Shown here: positions 557 through 11,091 of the stretch, piece after piece
How positions within the stretch are numbered: position 1 is the first letter of the stretch
Layout: every line of letters begins with the position of its first letter
Source: Tannerella sp.
GTDB taxonomy: Bacteria; Bacteroidota; Bacteroidia; Bacteroidales; Tannerellaceae
Direction of reading: 5' to 3'
Length of the DNA: 11,091 nucleotides
NCBI GenBank assembly: GCA_031263835.1
Contig: JAISEZ010000316.1
Coordinates: 1-11,091 of the forward strand
The notes under the pieces: model-generated
The model's database searches: none
What the model was told of the DNA's origin: nothing
What the model saw: only the letters and a program-made list of their open reading frames with translations
Made by a program: the position numbers and the translations under genes

Positions 557-3500
557 ATGAATTGTATAATTAATAACACGCCATACGGTCTGCAACGACC
601 GTCATGGCGACAAAAAATGACTGTGAAATGCATCCTGTTTCTGTTTCTGACGGGAATGTATACGGCGCCGGCGAACGCATCTTTTGCCGGCGAAAATGAA
701 ACATTTGAACAGCAGCAACGCAAAACGGTGTCCGGTACGGTCGTCGATGTCAACGGCGAGCCGGTAGCCGGTGCGAATGTAGTGGAGAAAGGCGTTGCCG
801 CCAACGGGACAATCACCAATATAAACGGTCGGTTCAATCTGGACGTATCGCCGGGGGCGACGCTGACTGTTTCCTATGTTGGATATGTGACGCAGGAGAT
901 TGCGGTGGCGAACAGGACAAGCCTGAATGTCACGCTTGTGGAGGACGCCAAAACGCTGGAAGAAGTGGTGGTCGTAGGATTCGGCACGCAGAAGAAGATA
1001 AACCTGACGGGTTCGGTCAGCGTGGCGGATGAGAAAGTATTCCGGGAACGCCCGCTGACGACGGCTTCGCAAGCCTTGCAGGGAATGGTGCCGGGATTGC
1101 TGGTAACGCAGACCGAAGGCGGTCCGGCCAACAACAATCCCGTCATCCAGATTCGCGGCAAGGGGACGATCGGCAAGGAGTCGCTGGCTGACGTGCTTGT
1201 GCTGATCGATGGCATGGAGGGCGACATCAACACCCTCAACCCGCAGGAGATTGAGAACGTTTCGGTGCTCAAAGACGCCGCCGCCTCGTCCATCTACGGG
1301 TCGCGCGCGCCTTTCGGCGTGATACTGGTTACGACCAAAAAGGGTAAACTGGGCAAGCCGACACTCAACTACAACAACAGTTTGCGCTGGAACACCCCCG
1401 TTCACCTGCCCAAGCCGGCCGATTCATACAATTTCGCGCTCTTCGTAAACGATGCCAGCAGAAACTCCGGTCGCACCAATTTGATTCCTGACGACCAGTT
1501 TCAACGCATTCAGGATTATCAGGCGGGAAAGATTACAACCGTCAACATTCCCGACCCGAACAACCCGAGAGTCTGGGCGTCGGGCAAAGGGTACGGCAAC
1601 GCCAACGAGAACTGGATAAAGAACACGTACAACAGTTGGGTGTTTTCGCAGGAACACAACCTGAGCCTCAACGGCGGCACGGAGACCTATAAGTACTACA
1701 CTTCGCTGCAATTTATGGATTTCAAGGGCCTGATGACGTTCAACACCGACCGCAGGCAGCGCTATTCCGGCTCGGCGAAGCTGAACGTTCAGGCCGCGAA
1801 GTGGGCGCAGCTCAATACCGGCGTGCGCTTTATCCGCGAAGACGCCTCGCAGCCCTACTACATGCCCTCGATAGAAGGTATGTTCATAAACGGCTTGGCG
1901 ATCATGCCGATGTATGACGACAACGGTTACCTGACCGACTACGGCCCGAACCTGCTCCGGGTTCGCGACGGCGGGAACACGACCCTCCAGAACGACGTCG
2001 TTTACCTGCAGGAGCAGCTCGTGATCGAACCGGTGAAGGACTGGAAAACGTTCGGCGAGTTCAACTACAGGAGCACCTACAACCGGACCCATTCCGACTG
2101 GCAAAAGGTGTACAATCACAACAACGTGAACGGCGATCCGTCGCTGTCCTCAACGGGCAACGGCGTCAGCGAAACGTTCGAAAAACAGAATTTCGTGAAC
2201 GTCAATCTCTATTCGGAATACACCCGTTCACTGGGCGGCCACACGCTCAAAGGCATGGTCGGATTTCAGTCCGAACTGATGAATATCAGCTCTATGAATG
2301 CTTCGCGCATCGGCGTTATGATCTCTTCGCTTCCCGAAATCGACCTGACCAACGGTTTCGACATCAGCGGCAACCAGGTGATGCCCGAAGTCAAAGGCAA
2401 TCGCAACCACTGGGCTACGGCCGGCTATTTCGGACGCCTGAACTGGGACTACAGGCAGAAATACCTGCTGGAAGGCAACCTGCGCTACGACGGCAGTTCG
2501 CGCTTCCGCCGCGATAACCGGTGGATCTGGCTTCCTTCCGTATCGGCGGGGTGGAACATCGCCTTCGAGGATTTCTGGGAACCCTACCGCGATTATCTCG
2601 GGAGTTTCAAGCTGCGCGCTTCCTATGGCGATCTGGCTAACCAGAATACGGCGAACCTGTATCCTACCTACGTGACGCTCTGGACCGGCACGAACAGCGG
2701 CAACTGGCTGATTAACGGTGCAAGGCCCAACACGGCCGGCGTACCGGCGCTGATCTCCACTTCCCTCACCTGGGAACGGGTGCGCAGCACAAACCTTGCC
2801 CTCGATTTCGGGGCGCTCAACAACCGGCTGACCGGCTCGATTGAATATTTCACCCGCTACACGTTCGACATGGTCGGGCCGGGCATGTCGCTGCCGCAGA
2901 TTCTCGGCGCCAGCGTGCCGAACACCAACAATACCGACATGAAATCCTACGGTTTCGACCTCGACCTCCGGTGGAACGACCGCCTCAAGAACGGGCTGGG
3001 CTATGGCGTGGAACTCAAACTCTCGGACGCCGTCTCGAAAATCCTCAAGTATCCCAATCCGCAGGGCTATCTGGACGACGGAAAGGGCAGCAACTACAGC
3101 GACGGCTGGATCGTGGGCGACTTCTACGGCTACAAAACACTGGGCCTTGCCAAAACGCAGGCCGAGATGGACGCGCATCTGGCCACGCTCCCCAATGGCG
3201 GGCAGAACCAGCTTGGCAGCGCATGGCAGGCGGGCGACCTGATGTTTGTGGACGTCAACGGCGACGGCATCATCAACAGCGGCACGAACACCAAAACCGA
3301 CCCGGGCGACCTGGTCAGGATCGGCAACAACACGCCGCGCTACAGTCTCGGAGTCAATCTCTATGCCGACTATAAGGGCTTCGACCTGCGCGCCTTCTTT
3401 CAGGGAATACTTAAACGGCAGGTCGCTCCTGGGAGCGTCAACATGTTCTCCATCGCGAACCAAAGCACCAACTACGTAGCGGTATTCGATTCGCACATGG

Positions 3501-3868
3501 ATTATTTCCGCGACGACCCCGACAGCCCGCTCGGCCTCAACACCGACGCCTATTTCGGACGGCCCTATTTCGACCGTTACAACAACATACCGACGACGAA
3601 CAGCAACGACCATTTCGTGCAGAACGCTTCTTACCTCAGGCTCAAAAACCTGCAGATCGGCTATACGCTGCCCTCCGCATTGACGCGCAAATTTGCCGTT
3701 CAGAACCTCCGCTTCTATCTGTCGGGCGAAAACCTGCTCACCTTTACGAAGCTGTTCAAGGAGTTTGACCCCGAACAGGTGGACTATTATCTGCGTGGCT
3801 CTAACGCCCAGGGGTTCGGCTATCCGATAATGAAAGTGATTTCAGCCGGTTGCAGTATTAATTTTTAA
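557..3868 (+). CDS. SusC/RagA-family TonB-dependent outer-membrane transporter
   Basis: This is an energised outer-membrane importer that works with the SusD lipoprotein encoded next to it, normally moving oligosaccharides or glycosides into the periplasm. The 1103-residue product has a signal peptide (hydrophobic core about 24-36, Ala-X-Ala at 39-41), a carboxypeptidase-regulatory-like domain at about 57-133 (VSGTVVDVNGEPVAGANV), a TonB-box-like segment LEEVVVVGFG at 134-143, a plug at about 150-262 with the family signature (VLKDAAASSIYGSR, then GVILVTTKKGK), and a beta-barrel to the terminal Phe. The length is normal for the family. There is no STN domain, so FecI/FecR-type signalling is not indicated. 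The ATG at 557 is preferred because SusC proteins often have such a polar stretch before the hydrophobic core; ATG at 617 (residue 21) is the alternative. Substrate cannot be read from sequence. The stop is 12 nt before susD. Confidence 0.96.
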   Translation: MNCIINNTPYGLQRPSWRQKMTVKCILFLFLTGMYTAPANASFAGENETFEQQQRKTVSGTVVDVNGEPVAGANVVEKGVAANGTITNINGRFNLDVSPGATLTVSYVGYVTQEIAVANRTSLNVTLVEDAKTLEEVVVVGFGTQKKINLTGSVSVADEKVFRERPLTTASQALQGMVPGLLVTQTEGGPANNNPVIQIRGKGTIGKESLADVLVLIDGMEGDINTLNPQEIENVSVLKDAAASSIYGSRAPFGVILVTTKKGKLGKPTLNYNNSLRWNTPVHLPKPADSYNFALFVNDASRNSGRTNLIPDDQFQRIQDYQAGKITTVNIPDPNNPRVWASGKGYGNANENWIKNTYNSWVFSQEHNLSLNGGTETYKYYTSLQFMDFKGLMTFNTDRRQRYSGSAKLNVQAAKWAQLNTGVRFIREDASQPYYMPSIEGMFINGLAIMPMYDDNGYLTDYGPNLLRVRDGGNTTLQNDVVYLQEQLVIEPVKDWKTFGEFNYRSTYNRTHSDWQKVYNHNNVNGDPSLSSTGNGVSETFEKQNFVNVNLYSEYTRSLGGHTLKGMVGFQSELMNISSMNASRIGVMISSLPEIDLTNGFDISGNQVMPEVKGNRNHWATAGYFGRLNWDYRQKYLLEGNLRYDGSSRFRRDNRWIWLPSVSAGWNIAFEDFWEPYRDYLGSFKLRASYGDLANQNTANLYPTYVTLWTGTNSGNWLINGARPNTAGVPALISTSLTWERVRSTNLALDFGALNNRLTGSIEYFTRYTFDMVGPGMSLPQILGASVPNTNNTDMKSYGFDLDLRWNDRLKNGLGYGVELKLSDAVSKILKYPNPQGYLDDGKGSNYSDGWIVGDFYGYKTLGLAKTQAEMDAHLATLPNGGQNQLGSAWQAGDLMFVDVNGDGIINSGTNTKTDPGDLVRIGNNTPRYSLGVNLYADYKGFDLRAFFQGILKRQVAPGSVNMFSIANQSTNYVAVFDSHMDYFRDDPDSPLGLNTDAYFGRPYFDRYNNIPTTNSNDHFVQNASYLRLKNLQIGYTLPSALTRKFAVQNLRFYLSGENLLTFTKLFKEFDPEQVDYYLRGSNAQGFGYPIMKVISAGCSINF

Positions 3869-3880
3869 AACAGAACGATT

Positions 3881-5953
3881 ATGAACAAGATAAAATTTTT
3901 CAGAACGATATTTTTCCTGACAACAGGTTTGATATTGGCGGCATGCGCTGCCGTTTCGTGCGGGGATGATTTTCTGGATCGCGAACCGCTCTCGGTGCTC
4001 ACCCCCGATGTCTTCTATATGGAAGAAGGTCAGCTGGCCTCTTTCACGGTCGGCCAGTTCAATTTGCTGCCCAACCAGATAGAAGGTAGCGGCGGCACCC
4101 CGTTCGAACCCGCGGCCTATTATTTCTATGTTTCGGACATGTTTACGGATAATCAGGCCAATTTTCAAGTCACCGACGGGATCTTTTACAGTCCCAGACG
4201 TCTCGTCCAGAACTACGACGAGCTGAACGGCTGCTTTTCCATGCTGTACAGTCTCAATTATTTCCTTCAAACGGTAGTGCCGCGACTGAACGCGGGTACG
4301 CTGGAGGGCGACCGCGAGAATGTGGCGCATTATATCGGCGAGGCCTATCTGATGCGGGCATGGAGGATGTTTAACTCATACGTGGGCTACGGTGACATGC
4401 CGATTGTCCGCAACGTGCTGCCCGACCGGTTCGAGCCGCTGGTGGAAGCCAGTACGCGCCGGCCGCGCAACGAAGTGGCGCGGTTTATCCTTTCCGACCT
4501 CGATTCGGCGGCGATGCTGATGAAGACTGTCTCGCCCGACGGTCGCCGGCAGCGTCCCTCGCGCTATGTCGCCTGGGTAATCAAATCGCGCGTAGCGCTG
4601 TTTGAAGCCACCTGGTTGAAATATTTCAAGGGGACGGCCTTTGTGCCGGGCGGTCCGGGCTGGCCTGGAGCGGCCACTTACCCGGACTTCCGGTTCCCCG
4701 CAGGCAGCATCGACGCCGAGATAGACTGGTTCCTGCAGGAGGCCATGACCGCGGCGCAGGCCGTGGCCGACGCCAACCCGCTGATGGAAAATAACGGCGT
4801 GCTGCCGCAGGACGTCTCCGACCCCGTCAACCCCTACTTCGACATGCTTTGCAACGAAACCGACTACTCGAGCTACAGCGAAGTATTGCTCTGGAGGGAA
4901 TCCACCCAGCCGCTCGGGCCGCATCACAACGGCGCCTCTTCGGCCTCCACGGGCAACGACGGCTGCGGCATGACGCGCGCACTGGTCGAAAGTTTCGTAA
5001 TGAAGAACGGGCTGCCGGTCTATGCCTCCGGCTCGGGATACGCCGGCGACGACTATCTCGAAGACGTCGTCAAGGATCGCGACGACCGCCTGCGCCTCTG
5101 GCTCAAGCTGCCCGGACAGAAAAACATCCTCTGGGACGACCCCAACCGCGGCTCGGGACGGGAATATGAACCGGTTTTCCCACTCATCACCGTGTCCGAC
5201 TGGAGCAAATACATCACCGGCTACACTTCGCGCAAGGGCGCCACGCAGCACGGCGACCAGTATACGCCCAGTTCGCATCGTTCCTGGCTGCCCTGTCCCG
5301 CCTTCCGTTCGGCCGAAGCCATGCTCAACTACATGGAAGCCTGTTACGAGAAAAACGCTTCGCTCGACAGCAAGGCGCAGGAATACTGGCGCACCCTGCG
5401 GACGCGCGCCGGCGTTGACCCCGATTTCAACAAGACCATTGCCGCCACCGACATGGAGAAGGAAGCGGCCACGGGCAACTGGGCCGTATGGTCGGGAGGA
5501 AACAGGGTGGATGCCACGCTGTTCAATATCCGCCGCGAGCGCAACAGCGAATTTTGGGGTGAAGCCCTGCGCAAGTATGACGTTCGCCGCTGGCGCTCTT
5601 TAGACGGGCTGATCACCACGCCCTATCAAATCGAAGGGTTTAAGATCTGGGGACCGATGAAAGACCTGTACGAACAGGCTCGTGAAGGAAGTCCGGCTCA
5701 ATATGCCGAGTTGCGTTACGGTACGGCCAACGCCACCGTCTCCGACCCTGCCAACAGCCTCTACCTTCGTCCGTATCAGGTCAATCTCTCGAACGTGCTG
5801 TATGACGGCTACCACTGGAAAATGGCATGGTATCTGTATCCGATAGGCATCCAGCGTTTTATGGACTTAACCTCCGATGGCGACATCTCCAAATCGCCCC
5901 TCTACCAGAATCCCGGATGGGGTCTTGTAGTCGGCAGGGAAGCCGAACAGTGA
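3881..5953 (+). CDS. SusD/RagB-family surface glycan-binding lipoprotein
   Basis: This is the surface lid of the SusC transporter, binding the ligand and closing over the barrel. The 690-residue product starts with a lipoprotein signal; Cys27 in AVSC is the likely lipidated residue, and GDDFLD follows, matching the acidic surface-export signal of Bacteroidota lipoproteins and the usual SusD start. The helical TPR-like core shows at about 153-180 (GEAYLMRAW, then YGDMPIV) and 225-248. The C-terminal part has the usual RRERNSEFWGEALRKYDVRRW stretch at about 550-571 and ends with LYPIG near 655 and NPGWG near 677, as in other SusD proteins. At 690 residues it is longer than the roughly 550 of the archetypal SusD. 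It follows susC by 12 nt, so the two are co-transcribed. Ligand unknown; the family call is secure. Confidence 0.96.
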   Translation: MNKIKFFRTIFFLTTGLILAACAAVSCGDDFLDREPLSVLTPDVFYMEEGQLASFTVGQFNLLPNQIEGSGGTPFEPAAYYFYVSDMFTDNQANFQVTDGIFYSPRRLVQNYDELNGCFSMLYSLNYFLQTVVPRLNAGTLEGDRENVAHYIGEAYLMRAWRMFNSYVGYGDMPIVRNVLPDRFEPLVEASTRRPRNEVARFILSDLDSAAMLMKTVSPDGRRQRPSRYVAWVIKSRVALFEATWLKYFKGTAFVPGGPGWPGAATYPDFRFPAGSIDAEIDWFLQEAMTAAQAVADANPLMENNGVLPQDVSDPVNPYFDMLCNETDYSSYSEVLLWRESTQPLGPHHNGASSASTGNDGCGMTRALVESFVMKNGLPVYASGSGYAGDDYLEDVVKDRDDRLRLWLKLPGQKNILWDDPNRGSGREYEPVFPLITVSDWSKYITGYTSRKGATQHGDQYTPSSHRSWLPCPAFRSAEAMLNYMEACYEKNASLDSKAQEYWRTLRTRAGVDPDFNKTIAATDMEKEAATGNWAVWSGGNRVDATLFNIRRERNSEFWGEALRKYDVRRWRSLDGLITTPYQIEGFKIWGPMKDLYEQAREGSPAQYAELRYGTANATVSDPANSLYLRPYQVNLSNVLYDGYHWKMAWYLYPIGIQRFMDLTSDGDISKSPLYQNPGWGLVVGREAEQ

Positions 5954-5973
5954 CAATGAGAATATGAGAATAA

Positions 5974-6011
5974 GAAAATGAGTGAATGGGAAAATTCATT
6001 CACTCATTTTC
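5974..6011 (+). terminator. 15-bp perfect hairpin, likely terminator or attenuator
   Basis: Bases 5974-5988 (GAAAATGAGTGAATG) are the exact reverse complement of 5997-6011, with an 8-nt loop. The descending arm ends in CATTTTC, giving a short T-run but no long U-tail, so termination may be partial. The symmetric A-run and T-run would suit either direction. It lies 20 nt after the susD stop, and the next gene starts at 6062 without an obvious promoter. Attenuated read-through into the enzyme genes is therefore plausible. It could also be an mRNA-stabilising 3' structure. Confidence 0.65.
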
Positions 6012-6061
6012 AAATGCTCTCAAATTAATGATGATTATAATAACATTTAAAATTAAAAGAA

Positions 6062-7393
6062 ATGAAAGAGAAATCAAATGAAATGAGCCGACGCCAATTT
6101 TTAGGCTATTCGGCATTGGGACTGGCAGGATTGACGGTTTTGCCGAGCTGGGTTACGGCAGCAGGCGTTCGCATAGCGCCGAGCGACCGGGTGGTGATGG
6201 GCTGGATCGGGCTTGGACAGCAGGGAAATTCCGATTTTTACTCTGCCACCGACTGTCCGGGAGTTCAGGTAGTTGCCGGTTGCGATGTGGACGCGCTCAA
6301 GCGCGAACGTTTCAAACGGCGTGTGGAAGCGTGGCAGAAAAGCCAGGACAGGCCTGCACGCTGCGATATGTATGAATTTTATCAGGACTTGCTGGAGCGT
6401 ACCGATATTGATGCCGTAGGCATTGCCACTCCCGACCACTGGCACGCCTTTGTAACGATAGACGCCTGCAAGGCCAAAAAGGACATTTATGTGCAGAAAC
6501 CGATGGCGTTCACCGTTACGGAAGGGCATGCGATGATCAAAGCGGTGCGTGAAAACGGCGTTGTATTGCAGGTGGGCAGTCAGCAACGCTCCAGCCGGGA
6601 ATTTCAGCAGGCCATCGCCATCGTCCGGGGCGGAGGCATCGGACATGTAGATACTGTCTATTCGCGCGTCGGCGATCCGCCAAAACCGTTTGACCTGCCC
6701 GAAATGCCTGTCCCGCTTTCCCTGAACTGGAATCTGTGGCTTGGCGGACTGAGTGACCCGAAAATTCACTACCATCCCGACCTTTGCCCGCCCATCATTT
6801 TAGACCCGGAGCAACACGAGCAGCTCTGGGGCGCCTGGCGCTGGTACTGCGAAACGGGCAACGGCTTCACCGCCGACTGGGGCGCGCACATGTTCGATAT
6901 CTCACAGGCAGCCATCGGTATGGACGGCTCCGGCCCCTGCGAATTTATCCCGAAAGGATATGGAGGTGCGCAGTACCTGACCATGAAATATCAAAACGGC
7001 ATCGTCATGACCGAACAGGACTTCCGCAAGGAAGGCGGTTTAGGCATCTGTTTCAACGGCGATAAGGGCTGGCTGAAAGTTACGCGCGGCTATATCGAAT
7101 GTTCCAATCCCGACCTCCTGAAAAAGGAAGAAAAAAAGATCGCAGCGGGAGAATATGAAAAAAGTTCCGGACACATGCAGAATTTTATCGACTGCATCCG
7201 TTCGCGCAAAAATCCGATCGCACCTGTTGAAGCCGGCTGCAGTACGAATACGCTGTGCTGTATCGCCAACATCGCAACCGAACTGAAACGGCCCGTCAAG
7301 TGGGATCCCGCGACCCTCAGTTTCGGAGACGACCGGGAAGCCACCGGACACCGGCTTTATAAATATCCGTATAGAAAACCCTATTCATTATAA
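6062..7393 (+). CDS. Tat-exported Gfo/Idh/MocA-family oxidoreductase
   Basis: Predicted NAD(P)-dependent sugar oxidoreductase of 443 residues. A twin-arginine motif, SRRQFLG (9-15), precedes a hydrophobic stretch ending near AAG (33-35), so it should be exported folded with its cofactor. A Rossmann fold follows, with IGLGQQG at 49-55, then ATPDHWHA at 122-129 and QKP at 145-147, where Lys146 is the family's catalytic lysine. The C-terminal domain carries DWGAHMFD at 272-279, whose Asp and His are the usual substrate-site residues. The family is broad and includes glucose-fructose oxidoreductase, inositol dehydrogenase and GH109, so the substrate is uncertain. Beside a DUF1080 protein and a TIM-barrel isomerase, C3 oxidation of a glycoside is the best guess. 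The ATG at 6062 follows A-rich sequence; ATG at 6083 (MSRRQF) is an equally plausible start. Confidence 0.9.
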   Translation: MKEKSNEMSRRQFLGYSALGLAGLTVLPSWVTAAGVRIAPSDRVVMGWIGLGQQGNSDFYSATDCPGVQVVAGCDVDALKRERFKRRVEAWQKSQDRPARCDMYEFYQDLLERTDIDAVGIATPDHWHAFVTIDACKAKKDIYVQKPMAFTVTEGHAMIKAVRENGVVLQVGSQQRSSREFQQAIAIVRGGGIGHVDTVYSRVGDPPKPFDLPEMPVPLSLNWNLWLGGLSDPKIHYHPDLCPPIILDPEQHEQLWGAWRWYCETGNGFTADWGAHMFDISQAAIGMDGSGPCEFIPKGYGGAQYLTMKYQNGIVMTEQDFRKEGGLGICFNGDKGWLKVTRGYIECSNPDLLKKEEKKIAAGEYEKSSGHMQNFIDCIRSRKNPIAPVEAGCSTNTLCCIANIATELKRPVKWDPATLSFGDDREATGHRLYKYPYRKPYSL

Positions 7394-7405
7394 ATTGTAA
7401 ATAAT

Positions 7406-8269
7406 ATGAAAACAAATCTTTTAATTATCGCCTTGGCAGGCGTCTTATGTTGCCTGGGAGCAGCCAAAAAACAAAATTCAAAATTCGGCGGCGTACAGAT
7501 CGGAACGATCACGTACAGTTATCGCGAGATGCCCGACCAGTCGCTGAAAGCGACACTGGATTACGCCGTCAGGTCCGGCCTCAGTTCGGTTGAGCTGATG
7601 GGCTACACCGTCGAATTGTACGCCGGCATACCCGCTGAAAACCAGAAGGAATGGCGAACGACCGTTTCGATGGACAAATTTAAGGAAATCAAAAAGATGT
7701 TTAAGGACAAAGGTGTCAGGATCCATATCCTTAAACTTGAGACCTTCGACTCGCCCGAGGAAACCGACTATGCATTCCGCGTGTGCAAAACGCTTGGCGC
7801 CATCGGCATCACCACCGAAGTATCCCTTGATATGGCAAAAAAGGTGGCGCCTTTTGCCGAAAAGCACAAGCTGTACTTAATTTTCCATAATCACTGCCAG
7901 TCGGGCGACCCAAATTTCAGTTACGACCCGATTCTGGCAGTCAGCAAATCTGTCATGCTGAACTTCGACGTGGGTCATTATTTCGGAGTAACGGATAAAA
8001 ATCCATGCGATTTCATCCGTCGGTATCATTCCCGGATTGCCAGTTTGCACATGAAAGACAAGACCGGCCCGACCGCTGCCGACGCCTGCGGCGTCAATAA
8101 GCCCTGGGGACAGGGAGAAACCCCGGTTAAGTATATTCTGCAGCTGCTGAAAAAGGAGAAATATCCGATTACGGCAGATATTGAACTCGAATACGATGTT
8201 CCGAAAGGTTCCGACCCTGTCCGGGAAGTGGCTAAATGTGTGGAATATTGCAGGGAAGCGCTCAAGTAG
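7406..8269 (+). CDS. Secreted xylose-isomerase-like TIM-barrel protein
   Basis: This 287-residue protein belongs to the sugar phosphate isomerase/epimerase (AP endonuclease 2-like, xylose-isomerase-like) TIM-barrel superfamily. A Sec signal peptide covers about residues 1-20; its cysteines lack a proper lipobox, so a soluble periplasmic protein is likely. Candidate metal ligands sit at barrel strand ends: Glu138 (TTEVS), Asp188 (NFDVGH), His215 (SLHMKD) and Glu260 (ADIELEY), with FHNH at 160-163. The order Glu-Asp-His-Glu matches the divalent-metal site of this superfamily. It starts 12 nt after the oxidoreductase stop, so the two are co-transcribed. Related proteins act as epimerases, isomerases or, in the 3-keto-glycoside route, hydratases of the unsaturated 2-hydroxy-3-keto sugar. 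The last role fits this neighbourhood but is inference. The name should stay at family level. Confidence 0.88.
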   Translation: MKTNLLIIALAGVLCCLGAAKKQNSKFGGVQIGTITYSYREMPDQSLKATLDYAVRSGLSSVELMGYTVELYAGIPAENQKEWRTTVSMDKFKEIKKMFKDKGVRIHILKLETFDSPEETDYAFRVCKTLGAIGITTEVSLDMAKKVAPFAEKHKLYLIFHNHCQSGDPNFSYDPILAVSKSVMLNFDVGHYFGVTDKNPCDFIRRYHSRIASLHMKDKTGPTAADACGVNKPWGQGETPVKYILQLLKKEKYPITADIELEYDVPKGSDPVREVAKCVEYCREALK

Positions 8270-8340
8270 ATGGTTTCCTGTCGATATACCCGATTTTACA
8301 AGGGAGATCAGAGAACTTTGACAATCAAATAATATTCAAA

Positions 8341-10362
8341 ATGAAACGATTAAATTTATTTTTAGTATTAACATGCTGCATGCTTGCAGGCGTGCAGGGA
8401 AGTATCAACATGCCTGCCGTATTCGGAGACAACATGGTATTGCAGCGGCAGAGCGAAGTAAATGTATGGGGTTCCCATACGTGCTACAGGAAACATGCGA
8501 GTCCGGAAATCCGTGTAACCGGCAGTTGGGCGCCTCTCGACACGGTTGTTGCCGAATTTACCCGGGACGGACACTGGAAGGCAAAAATCCGCACGGGCGC
8601 CGCAGGAGGGCCTTACACCTTGAAAATCTTTTCGTCGTTGGACGAAACGGTTGAATATAAGAATGTGATGCTGGGCGAGGTATGGCTGTGCAGCGGACAG
8701 TCGAATATGGAGTGGAGGGTGAACGCCGTGAAATATAACGGTGAGGTGGCAGAGGCGGCAAAACAGTTGGAGGTACGTGTTTTCACACTTCCCCTTATTG
8801 GCGCCGAATATCCTCAGAACGACTGCGACGCCTCGTGGGAGGAATGTTCCCCCAAAATGCTGGAAAGCGTCAGTGCGGTGGCGTATTTTTTCGCCCGTCA
8901 TCTGAAAGAAGCGCTCGGTGTGCCGGTAGGCATTATCGTGCCGGCATGGGGCGGAACGGGTTTCGAGGTCTGGACGCCGAAAGAGCTGATATACGGCAAT
9001 CCTTCGCTGAAAGCGCCGTTTGATGCTTCGCAGTCCTGGCCTGCAGATGCCGGCTGCCTGTACAACGCGATGATTCATCCGCTGGCTCCTTTCAGCATGG
9101 CCGGCGCTATATGGTATCAGGGCGAGGCAAATGTCGGCAGGTATCAAACGTATGCCGAAGGAATGAAAACAATGATTACCGGATGGCGGAAGTCCTTCGG
9201 CAAAGAGTTCCCTTTTTATCAGGTGCAGATAGCCCCTTTCCGCTATAATACGCAACACAACGAGGCGGCATTGCTTCGCGAGCAGCAGGAACTGGCTACC
9301 GTTATTACGCCGAAAACGGGAATGGTTGTTGTTTCCGATCTGGTGGAAAATGTCGATGATATCCATCCGACCGACAAGTTGAATGTCGGCAAACGCCTGG
9401 CCAGTCTGGCGCTCGGAGATACTTACCGGCAGCCGCTTGCCGAATACAGAAACCCGACATTCGGCAAACTGACGGTAGAAAAAAACAAAGCCATCGTTTC
9501 ATTCAATAATACGGGAACCGGCCTGATTTGCAGGGACAAAAAAGTGGAAGGGCTGAAGATTGCAGGCGCCGACGGCGTATATCACGACGCCGACGGAACA
9601 GTCCGAAACGACAGACTGACCGTGTCGTCGCCTCATGTAAAAGAGCCTGTATCGGTTACTTACTGCTTCGACGACACCTCCTTCGGTAACCTGTTCACAA
9701 AGGGTGGCTTGCCGGTAGCGCCGTTCCGCAGCGACCGGACGGGCTTTCCCGAAGCGTATGAACTGTCGGCTCAGGAACGTAAAGAGGGCTTCAAAATGCT
9801 CTTCGACGGTACGAATATGGATTGCTGGACAGGCAATACCACCGATTATCGCATCGTTGACGGCTGCATCGACGTTGACGCCTCCGGTACAGCCGTCGGA
9901 AACCTTTATACCAAAGACGAGTATGCCGATTTCGCTTTCAGGTTCGAATTTCAGTTAACGCCTGCCGCCAACAACGGTGTAGGCATCCGCGCCCCGATGG
10001 AAGGGGACAACGCCTATAACGCGATGGAGATACAGATACTCGACTGCGAAAATCCCGAATACGACCGGATTGCGCCTTATCAGCATCACGGTTCGGTGTA
10101 CGGCGTTATCCCCGCAGGACACGGCGGAATGAAACCCGTTGGGGAATGGAACGAAGAAGAAATATATGCCGGCGGCGATCAGATCCGGGTTACGCTCAAC
10201 GAAGCAGTAATACTCGACGGAAACATACGGGAAGCGTCGAAGAACGGAACGCCCGACGGCAACGGGCATCCCGGACTGCTTAACAAAAGCGGACATATCG
10301 GATTTCTCGGACACGGATCACCATTGAAATTCAGAAATATAAGAATAAAAACATTGAAATAA
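8341..10362 (+). CDS. Secreted fusion: sialate O-acetylesterase-like + DUF1080 (3-keto-glycoside cleavage)
   Basis: This 673-residue protein has two catalytic-type domains. Residues 1-20 form a Sec signal peptide. About 22-470 is a SASA-type carbohydrate O-acetylesterase, with the nucleophile motif GQSNM at 119-123 (Ser121), WYQGEANVGR at 258-267 and DDIHP at 339-343 with catalytic-type His342; it ends in the family's typical GGLPVAPFRSD. About 482-672 is a DUF1080 domain (Pfam name: 3-keto-disaccharide hydrolase), beginning GFKMLFDG and continuing through GVGIRAP, EIQILD and QHHGSVYG. Both look intact. The ATG at 8341 is chosen because it directly begins the signal peptide; upstream in-frame codons, including an ATG at 8236 inside the previous gene, encode no signal. 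Likely role: deacetylate, then cleave the oxidised glycoside. The 71-nt gap before it has no clear promoter. Confidence 0.9.
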   Translation: MKRLNLFLVLTCCMLAGVQGSINMPAVFGDNMVLQRQSEVNVWGSHTCYRKHASPEIRVTGSWAPLDTVVAEFTRDGHWKAKIRTGAAGGPYTLKIFSSLDETVEYKNVMLGEVWLCSGQSNMEWRVNAVKYNGEVAEAAKQLEVRVFTLPLIGAEYPQNDCDASWEECSPKMLESVSAVAYFFARHLKEALGVPVGIIVPAWGGTGFEVWTPKELIYGNPSLKAPFDASQSWPADAGCLYNAMIHPLAPFSMAGAIWYQGEANVGRYQTYAEGMKTMITGWRKSFGKEFPFYQVQIAPFRYNTQHNEAALLREQQELATVITPKTGMVVVSDLVENVDDIHPTDKLNVGKRLASLALGDTYRQPLAEYRNPTFGKLTVEKNKAIVSFNNTGTGLICRDKKVEGLKIAGADGVYHDADGTVRNDRLTVSSPHVKEPVSVTYCFDDTSFGNLFTKGGLPVAPFRSDRTGFPEAYELSAQERKEGFKMLFDGTNMDCWTGNTTDYRIVDGCIDVDASGTAVGNLYTKDEYADFAFRFEFQLTPAANNGVGIRAPMEGDNAYNAMEIQILDCENPEYDRIAPYQHHGSVYGVIPAGHGGMKPVGEWNEEEIYAGGDQIRVTLNEAVILDGNIREASKNGTPDGNGHPGLLNKSGHIGFLGHGSPLKFRNIRIKTLK

Positions 10363-10439
10363 AACAAACTCTGCCTTAACATCACGGACGCCCTGAGATC
10401 AGGCAAAGAGGAATGATTAACTCTCTAAATTTTAAAGCT

Positions 10440-11091
10440 ATGTTTTACGTAAGAATCAACAAACTGAAAGTATTCAACAACCGGGAAGGATTTCTCGGAT
10501 TGTTTAACCGCGCGGAGCTGCGGATTTACAGCCATGCTGCCGGCTATTCCGTCGGGGCTGAACCGTACGTCTCTCCGCTGACCCTGGCAGACCTGATCAA
10601 CCTGGACGACAGCGCCCGCAGGCAAAAATTGCTTGATGCCGTCCTGTCGGAAACCGATCGATTTGCCCAAAGCCACAGCCTCGAAATCAACGGTGTGAAG
10701 GACAACCAGACCCTCACCTTCGACGAAGCGGGACTGGTACTCTATCAAAGTGAAACGATTCCCGACAGCCTGAATTTACAGGTCTGGGTGATCGAATCGG
10801 ACGAAGATGTGCGGAAATTCGCCCTTGATGCCGAAAAAGTAATACAGAGCGACGCCTTCCTGGGACTGGTCGCCTCCGTTGGCGCGGTTCTGGCCGTAAC
10901 GAATCCGCTGCTAACCGGCGCCATTGGCGTGGGTGGTGTAGTGGTCAGTCTGCTGCGTCAGAAACTGAAAGTCAACCGCGACGACCTGGTCGGCTACTGG
11001 CAGGCGACGCTCAACCGCACGGAACACTACCCGCACGGTACACGCGACCGGCAGGACGTGTACGACAGCACCGGCAACATACAGCTGGATT
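10440..11091 (+). CDS. Unrecognised protein with hydrophobic segment (cut by window edge)
   Basis: An open frame from ATG 10440 runs to the window end (217 residues seen, no stop). I cannot name the family with certainty. The N-terminal part (1-40; VRINKLKVFNN, then AELRIYSHAA) alternates in a way that suggests beta strands. A conserved-looking block, VKDNQTLTF (86-94) and SETIPDS (104-110), follows, then VWVIESDEDVRKF (115-127). A strongly hydrophobic, Gly/Val-rich stretch at about 140-172 could be a membrane hairpin. It is followed by LNRTEHYPHG (191-200). There is no N-terminal signal peptide. The start follows AT-rich sequence (AATTTTAAAGCT), typical here. A gap of 77 nt separates it from the fusion gene, so it may or may not belong to the operon. 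It uses GC-rich codons like its neighbours, so it looks like a real gene. Confidence 0.75.
   Translation, partial: MFYVRINKLKVFNNREGFLGLFNRAELRIYSHAAGYSVGAEPYVSPLTLADLINLDDSARRQKLLDAVLSETDRFAQSHSLEINGVKDNQTLTFDEAGLVLYQSETIPDSLNLQVWVIESDEDVRKFALDAEKVIQSDAFLGLVASVGAVLAVTNPLLTGAIGVGGVVVSLLRQKLKVNRDDLVGYWQATLNRTEHYPHGTRDRQDVYDSTGNIQLD

Follow-up and report, generated by a model that had tools for sequence, protein, structure and literature searches.

The closest described relatives of the locus reported here split glycosides by way of 3-keto sugars. BT2158 of Bacteroides thetaiotaomicron has been described as a glycoside 3-dehydrogenase of the periplasm that is required for disaccharides and glucosinolates (PMC11300592), and BT2157 as a 3-ketotrehalose hydrolase (PMC9007349). 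For levoglucosan, four enzymes carry out oxidation, elimination, hydration and reduction (PMC7676230), and 3-keto-glycoside cleavage also reaches glucosinolate and C-glycoside bonds (PMC11300592, PMC10628242). Here we describe a locus from Tannerella sp. on a complete contig of 11,091 nucleotides (JAISEZ010000316.1, our C88), which we call the window. It combines a SusC/SusD importer with a Gfo/Idh/MocA oxidoreductase (Gfo), a PF01261 TIM barrel (TIM) and a SASA carbohydrate esterase fused to a DUF1080 domain. We propose that it deacylates acylated glycosides and then splits them by a 3-keto route.

The chemistry and each of the protein families are already known. New in the open-licence literature, as far as we searched it, are fusions of an esterase with DUF1080 or with a TIM barrel that are tied to the 3-keto route, and an uncharacterised clade of Gfo proteins. 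No paper that we found in that literature deals with the clade of the window Gfo or with an esterase joined to a DUF1080 domain or a PF01261 TIM; this is weak evidence of absence. A physical link to an esterase would extend 3-keto cleavage to acylated glycosides, and the fusions would be small, testable bifunctional enzymes.

Comparison with described systems

The window shares Gfo and DUF1080 with the BT2157-BT2158 pathway, which is also represented by AL1 and AL2 of Alistipes according to the titles of their Protein Data Bank (PDB) entries. A PF01261-type TIM is present in several of the BT2158-family loci that we fetched as well (L207, L208, L209 and L216). In contrast to that pathway, the window has a Gfo from another clade, a TIM from another subfamily, a DUF1080 domain fused to an esterase and its own SusC/SusD pair. 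The gene order also differs, with Gfo-TIM-fusion in the window and Gfo-DUF1080-TIM in L207-L209.

The AtOGE/AtHYD route of Agrobacterium and the lgdA-B1-B2-C route for levoglucosan go through the same oxidation, PF01261-like elimination, hydration and reduction, as far as the available sections describe them (PMC10628242, PMC7676230). The window TIM and AtOGE have a His-x-His/His/Glu pattern in common. However, eliminase and hydratase are both sugar-isomerase-like in these routes, the AtOGE route starts with a flavoenzyme, and the same sections make no mention of SusC/SusD, DUF1080 or an esterase.

Proposed pathway

Five intact open reading frames (ORFs) follow one another on the + strand: SusC (557..3868), SusD (3881..5953), Gfo (6062..7393), TIM (7406..8269) and the fusion, with its SASA half at 8341..9738 and its DUF1080 half at 9751..10362. 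The gaps between them are 12, 108, 12 and 71 bases long, and the genes may be co-transcribed. An earlier sequence-only reading had described this row as a candidate locus for degrading 3-keto-glycosides. The row is confirmed, and profile searches found PF01408, PF01261, PF06439 and PF03629 in the window proteins. The export signals that had been noticed on all three enzymes are there too, judged by eye as for all window proteins: a twin-arginine (Tat) motif in Gfo (SRRQFLG) and Sec-type signals in TIM and the fusion. SusC also has a Sec-type signal, and SusD has a lipobox-like AVSC. TatC is encoded in the window's own genome and is present in 22 of the 25 genomes searched.

It is improbable that the three enzyme families met here by accident. 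The assembly (2.05 Mb, 331 contigs, 63% complete) contains 11 Gfo matches, three TIM matches and nine DUF1080 domains over the cut-off. If we assume about 1,800 genes, a chance run of Gfo, TIM and DUF1080 is expected roughly 0.0006 times (6 × 11 × 3 × 9/1800²). By this rough estimate, the run is more than chance.

We consider it fairly probable that the exported enzymes deacylate an acylated glycoside and then split it by C3 oxidation, elimination, hydration and reduction in the periplasm. SusC and SusD would bring the acylated glycoside into the periplasm, where the SASA domain would strip O-acyl groups that otherwise block the sugar ring. As the sequence-only reading suggested, this glycoside may be acetylated and may be a plant or microbial natural product. 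The Tat-exported Gfo, holding its NAD(P) tightly, would oxidise the C3 hydroxyl and so produce a 3-keto-glycoside. TIM, which we expect to be metal-dependent, would take the C2 proton and expel the aglycone or the next sugar, leaving a 2-hydroxy-3-keto-glucal. The DUF1080 domain would add water to this intermediate, and the resulting 3-keto sugar could be reduced by the window Gfo or by another Gfo.

Related loci and the possible origin of the window

The strongest evidence for a 3-keto route is the context of related loci. In Seramator thermalis (L028), one strand encodes a BT2158-family Gfo (908.5 bits), a DUF1080 protein, a window-type Gfo (75%) and a window-type TIM (61%), together with a TIM that is 50-59% identical to the TIMs of BT2158 loci. 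In Mariniphaga sp. (L076) there are another Gfo, two DUF1080 proteins and a window-type Gfo that is directly followed by a PF03629 esterase. Such neighbourhoods support the connection to a B. thetaiotaomicron-type route that the sequence-only reading had drawn.

Loci from closer relatives suggest how the window arose. In the sibling genome G112 (L226, contig C177), a DUF1080 gene (497-1216) is followed by the same esterase::DUF1080 fusion. Next come a dehydrogenase that truly belongs to the BT2158 family (794.7 bits, cut-off 750) and an esterase of the GDSL/SGNH type. In G111 (L228, contig C31), Gfo (94%) and TIM (91%) are followed by a lone DUF1080 gene whose ATG lies 15 bases past the TIM stop. 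The window's own genome has a second utilisation locus on contig C269 (L111, 1-20000), with SusC/SusD pairs, DUF6057, PD40, GH127 and a lone DUF1080. Its copy of the esterase is 87-88% identical and stops at EAYELSAQERK, just inside the start of the DUF1080 domain, which is lost; a BT2158-like Gfo (116.5 bits, model positions 1-88) begins on this contig and is cut by its end.

Between 6036 and the TIM stop the window matches L228, and its match to L226 begins only just before the esterase (8312 to 10369). Between TIM and the esterase, a 16-bp stretch on the + strand (8306-8321, GATCAGAGAACTTTGA) is identical to the end of a lone DUF1080 gene, namely its last codons (...IREL) and its stop; in L226 and C269 this gene lies before the same esterase. 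This stretch could be the deletion scar of a lone DUF1080 gene. It is suggestive only, because part of these bases can be aligned instead with similar sequence a little further downstream. These matches are explained most simply by an ancestral run of Gfo, TIM, DUF1080, esterase::DUF1080 and BT2158 Gfo. The window would then have lost its BT2158 Gfo and lone DUF1080; no complete copy of such a run was seen among the loci compared. Judged by its relatives, the locus looks like a rearranged derivative of a larger operon and not simply like the compact version of a known cluster for which it had been taken.

One could also argue that the window is a decayed or mis-joined leftover of such an operon, caused by rearrangement or assembly error, and that it has no working pathway in its present order. 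The switch from L228-like to L226-like sequence fits this idea, and so do the possible DUF1080 remnant and the fact that the window has no BT2158-family Gfo while one begins on C269. Yet all five ORFs are intact, and G112 contains the fusion too. The longest exact match to the genome's own C269 measures 72 bp, short for an assembler join, which makes an assembly error less likely, although exact matches between the window and G112 reach 130 bp. We therefore regard a non-functional leftover as quite unlikely.

The esterase and the DUF1080 domain

A single polypeptide carries the SASA domain (PF03629, 78.8 bits) and the DUF1080 domain, the latter identified by its PF06439 score (133.1 bits, gathering threshold 26.8) and by its fold. 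Hence, the added esterase proposed earlier is real, but it is not separate from the DUF1080 protein. The fusion most likely starts at the ATG at 8341, because a signal-like sequence begins there; the ORF is open from 8236.

The SASA half contains S121 (in GQSN), E262, D340 and H342. Both of its parts align with the esterases 9h4u and 7kmm, including the catalytic Ser and the Asp-x-His region. The gap between the two parts is about 21 residues in the window and about 195-197 in 9h4u and 7kmm. We take these esterases to be members of CE20 and the insert domain of about 195 residues to be a feature of that family. The window protein is without this insert and has a C-terminal DUF1080 domain instead.

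We propose that the DUF1080 half is a 2-hydroxy-3-keto-glucal hydratase, possibly also an eliminase. We took the roles of solved proteins from PDB titles, which describe DUF1080 enzymes as 3-keto-2-hydroxy-glucal hydratases or eliminase/hydratases and the TIM protein AL1 as the 1,2-lyase. This disagrees with the earlier assignment of the lyase activity to DUF1080. The question of the active site was approached by conservation. Of 32 columns with a conservation of at least 90% among 17 BT2157-type domains, the window domain keeps 20, including E563, Q565, D568, W603, N620 and H658 (numbered from the Met at 8341).

A different view is that the window holds a polysaccharide-utilisation locus of the ordinary, hydrolytic type. 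DUF1080 would then bind the glycan or hydrolyse it in the manner of glycoside hydrolase (GH) family 16, and Gfo and TIM would trim the released sugars. A DUF1080 enzyme has been reported as an endo-xanthanase (PMC10881899, PMC9007349), and the window domain groups with HEAT-DUF1080 domains on a branch other than that of BT2157. However, the DUF1080 fold and context point to 3-keto hydratases, and a Pfam scan of the window's proteins found no glycoside hydrolase family. We think that a hydrolytic locus is unlikely.

The full-length esterase::DUF1080 fusion occurs in two of the 41 genus genomes. Both Pfam domains are present in two of the 120 database matches listed, and one of the two (P0126) is probably the fusion gene of G112 on C177. 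Between L226 (1248-3293) and the window (8338-10359), which come from two species, the DUF1080 halves are 99% identical but the SASA halves only 86%, which suggests recent exchange or gene conversion. Fusions of TIM with an esterase occur in four of the 41 genus genomes (L187-L190). Their open frames span 762-900 codons, and all four have both Pfam domains over the cut-off as well as H-N-H, GQSN and DIHP. At 900 codons, the fusion in L190 (5749-8448, genome G021) is longer than the others; its two SASA halves are separated by a GH2_N-like stretch (26.1 bits, cut-off 28).

These fusions raise the possibility of an assembly line that deacylates, oxidises, eliminates and hydrates. The esterase would be attached to the eliminase or to the hydratase depending on the species, the deacylated sugar would pass straight to the 3-keto enzymes, and an exported, Bacteroidales-wide Gfo clade would oxidise C3. 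This extension of the pathway is tentative, and we rather doubt it.

DUF1080 is also found in HEAT-repeat proteins with two such domains (L117-L122, several congeners), mostly about 1,050-1,200 amino acids long, in a recurrent run with a Tat-type Gfo. In L117-L120 and L122 a Gfo different from that of the window lies upstream. A MurB-like gene, recognised by eye, is found downstream in several of these loci.

The TIM barrel

The exported TIM barrel (287 amino acids) scores 49.3 bits on PF01261 (cut-off 31.1), and its structural model, folded from a mixed alignment (A1), has a predicted local distance difference test score of 94.2. H161-N162-H163, D188, H215 and E260 are invariant in 45 sequences, and H191 is nearly so. 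This is the pattern of AL1/AtOGE-type enzymes, with His-x-His on strand 5 (H161, H163), His on strand 7 (H215) and Glu on strand 8 (E260). A profile comparison with these eliminases gave a probability of 95.5%. We propose that TIM is a 3-keto-glycoside eliminase (lyase).

Two other lines of evidence were set aside. First, the fold is no proof of function, because xylose isomerase and tagatose epimerases score alike. Second, the first profile (A1) matched 8tcd strongly, but 13 AL1-like TIMs had been mixed into it; a profile built from the window subfamily alone (A3) gave weak matches only.

Gfo and TIM could also form a conserved pair like YcjS and YcjR of E. coli, which would oxidise C3, change a neighbouring carbon and reduce the sugar again, so that it is epimerised without cleavage; esterase and DUF1080 would then be accessory. 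The strand-5 metal ligand of YcjR is, we assume, Glu146 (the letter agrees with the sequence). It aligns with His161 of the window TIM, which therefore does not have the YcjR-type Glu but has an eliminase-type second histidine, His163. The profile comparison with YcjR gave a probability of 0.4%. Epimerisation thus appears rather unlikely.

The oxidoreductase

Gfo (443 amino acids) consists of PF01408 and PF19051 and contains the motifs Q145-K146-P147, with the Lys K146, and D272WGAH276, with the Asp D272 and the His H276. We propose that it is a glycoside C3 dehydrogenase and/or a 3-keto reductase. By sequence comparison it is not a member of the characterised BT2158 family. A quick tree of 50 rows puts it in a 17-row clade with full support (100 in the Shimodaira-Hasegawa-like approximate likelihood ratio test), apart from the 10-row BT2158 clade. 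In a more careful tree of 29 rows the clades are again separate, with supports of 95/100 (10 rows) and 100/100 (7 rows); the GH109 and YcjS rows are long branches there and their placement is unsure.

An assignment to GH109, which the sequence-only reading had named as the competing activity, was rejected. PF19051 was found and PF21252 was not among the matches, K146 of QKP stands against EVS in the sole GH109 protein compared (in L187), and the two do not come together in the trees, with the caveat that the GH109 row is a long branch of unsure place. GH109-type proteins (PF21252) do lie close to some relatives: one directly precedes the TIM-esterase fusion of L187 (7019-8497) and another lies two genes before the Gfo-TIM pair of L011 (1-816). 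Hence, a second NAD-dependent glycoside-cleaving family accompanies some loci.

Inositol catabolism would offer analogous chemistry, with Gfo as the 2-dehydrogenase IolG and TIM as the inosose dehydratase IolE, and the NCBIfam models iolG (74.6 bits) and iolE (29.4 bits) are indeed among the matches. Both scores are far below the cut-offs of 355 and 290, and neither the export signals nor DUF1080 and the esterase would be explained. Such a role is very improbable.

Of 7,998 candidates scored in a search with the window Gfo, 3,785 proteins reached E ≤0.001, and identity is at least 73% in all 120 matches listed. The PDB search and NCBIfam yielded no member of the clade. Assigning a function to it would therefore annotate many Bacteroidales loci. 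In G002 (contig C13, L192:2442-3443) a TIM barrel is joined in frame to the Tat leader of a Gfo of the window type. It looks as though TIM had received a Tat signal through deletion of the Gfo body.

Evidence against the proposed pathway

Several observations weigh against the 3-keto pathway. The first group concerns the neighbours of Gfo in the best 80 of 593 confirmed stretches, of which 29 extend at least 9 kb on both sides and 69 at least 900 bp downstream. TIM directly follows Gfo in 28 of the 80 loci. DUF1080 lies within 10 kb of Gfo in only two (L028 and L076) and a SASA esterase in one (L076, by motif check and Pfam), counts that are lower bounds because only 29 loci have the full flanks. 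SusC is found near Gfo in 24 loci and SusD in 15 (weak profile). Direct neighbours were counted over 79 loci, leaving out L015; SusD is directly upstream of Gfo in five of them. In four of these five (L027, L056, L062 and L068) the order SusC-SusD-Gfo-TIM recurs. According to these counts, Gfo-TIM is the conserved unit, and DUF1080 and the esterase are mostly additions of the window lineage. The trio of enzyme families does not seem to be the original setting of this Gfo. Further direct neighbours, each cluster being named after one member tested against Pfam, include GH78 upstream (3 loci), a divergent NamZ (4), ThuA downstream (4) and a sulfatase downstream (3). Such variety favours a general glycoside-modifying step that is used in several pathways over a single fixed substrate.

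The second group concerns the enzymes. Gfo scores 120.6 bits on the BT2158-family model NF058561, in its N-terminal part only, against a threshold of 750 over 487 positions. For TIM, the window-subfamily profile matches AL1 (E 0.03) and AtOGE (E 0.007) weakly, the structures closest to TIM by sequence (3p6l, 4kw2 and 3lmz) are of unknown function, DVGH replaces the MDVY of AL1-type enzymes, and by fold xylose isomerase and sugar epimerases match equally well. In DUF1080, 12 of the 32 BT2157-type columns differ. Its nearest relatives (65-77% identity), setting aside other fusion copies and a fragment of 85% identity that lies at the end of a contig (G013), are the C-terminal domains of the HEAT-repeat proteins, whose activity is uncharacterised, and the three best matches to the fold of its model (3u1x, 3hbk and 3s5q) are family members whose function is unknown. 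The pathway also assumes a supply of NAD(P) in the periplasm.

The third group concerns relatives of the importer, whose neighbours were inspected in eight of the 21 SusD relatives listed besides the window's own. In L255 (75-76%) no same-strand enzyme directly follows SusD, the contig of L254 stops 0.7 kb past SusD, and GH2-type proteins adjoin L257, L259 and L260 (SusD 50-51% by blastp).

The importer and other features

SusC, a TonB-dependent outer-membrane importer of 1103 amino acids, scores 824.1 bits on TIGR04056 (cut-off 368.25) and contains PF07715 (Plug) and PF13715; its start could be later, at M21. Its capturing partner SusD, a lipoprotein of 690 amino acids, scores 105.8 bits on PF07980 (cut-off 23.1) and contains PF14322. 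Thus, the importer that had been ascribed to the locus is confirmed. Together with same-strand enzyme genes the pair makes this a locus of the polysaccharide-utilisation type. A comparison of SusD with solved structures gave two matches only, both weak and uninformative.

In the largest intergenic gap, between SusD and Gfo, lies an inverted repeat of 38 bp (5974..6011). Its arms are 15 bp long; it occurs once in the assembly and has no T run on the + strand. It is a possible attenuator between importer and enzymes. Scans of the window for terminator-like and promoter sites gave counts no higher than in shuffled sequences. Downstream of the fusion, the contig end cuts a partial ORF (10413-11091, at least 226 amino acids) that has no Pfam or NCBIfam match, and 5' of SusC, at about 178-204, there is a CT dinucleotide microsatellite.

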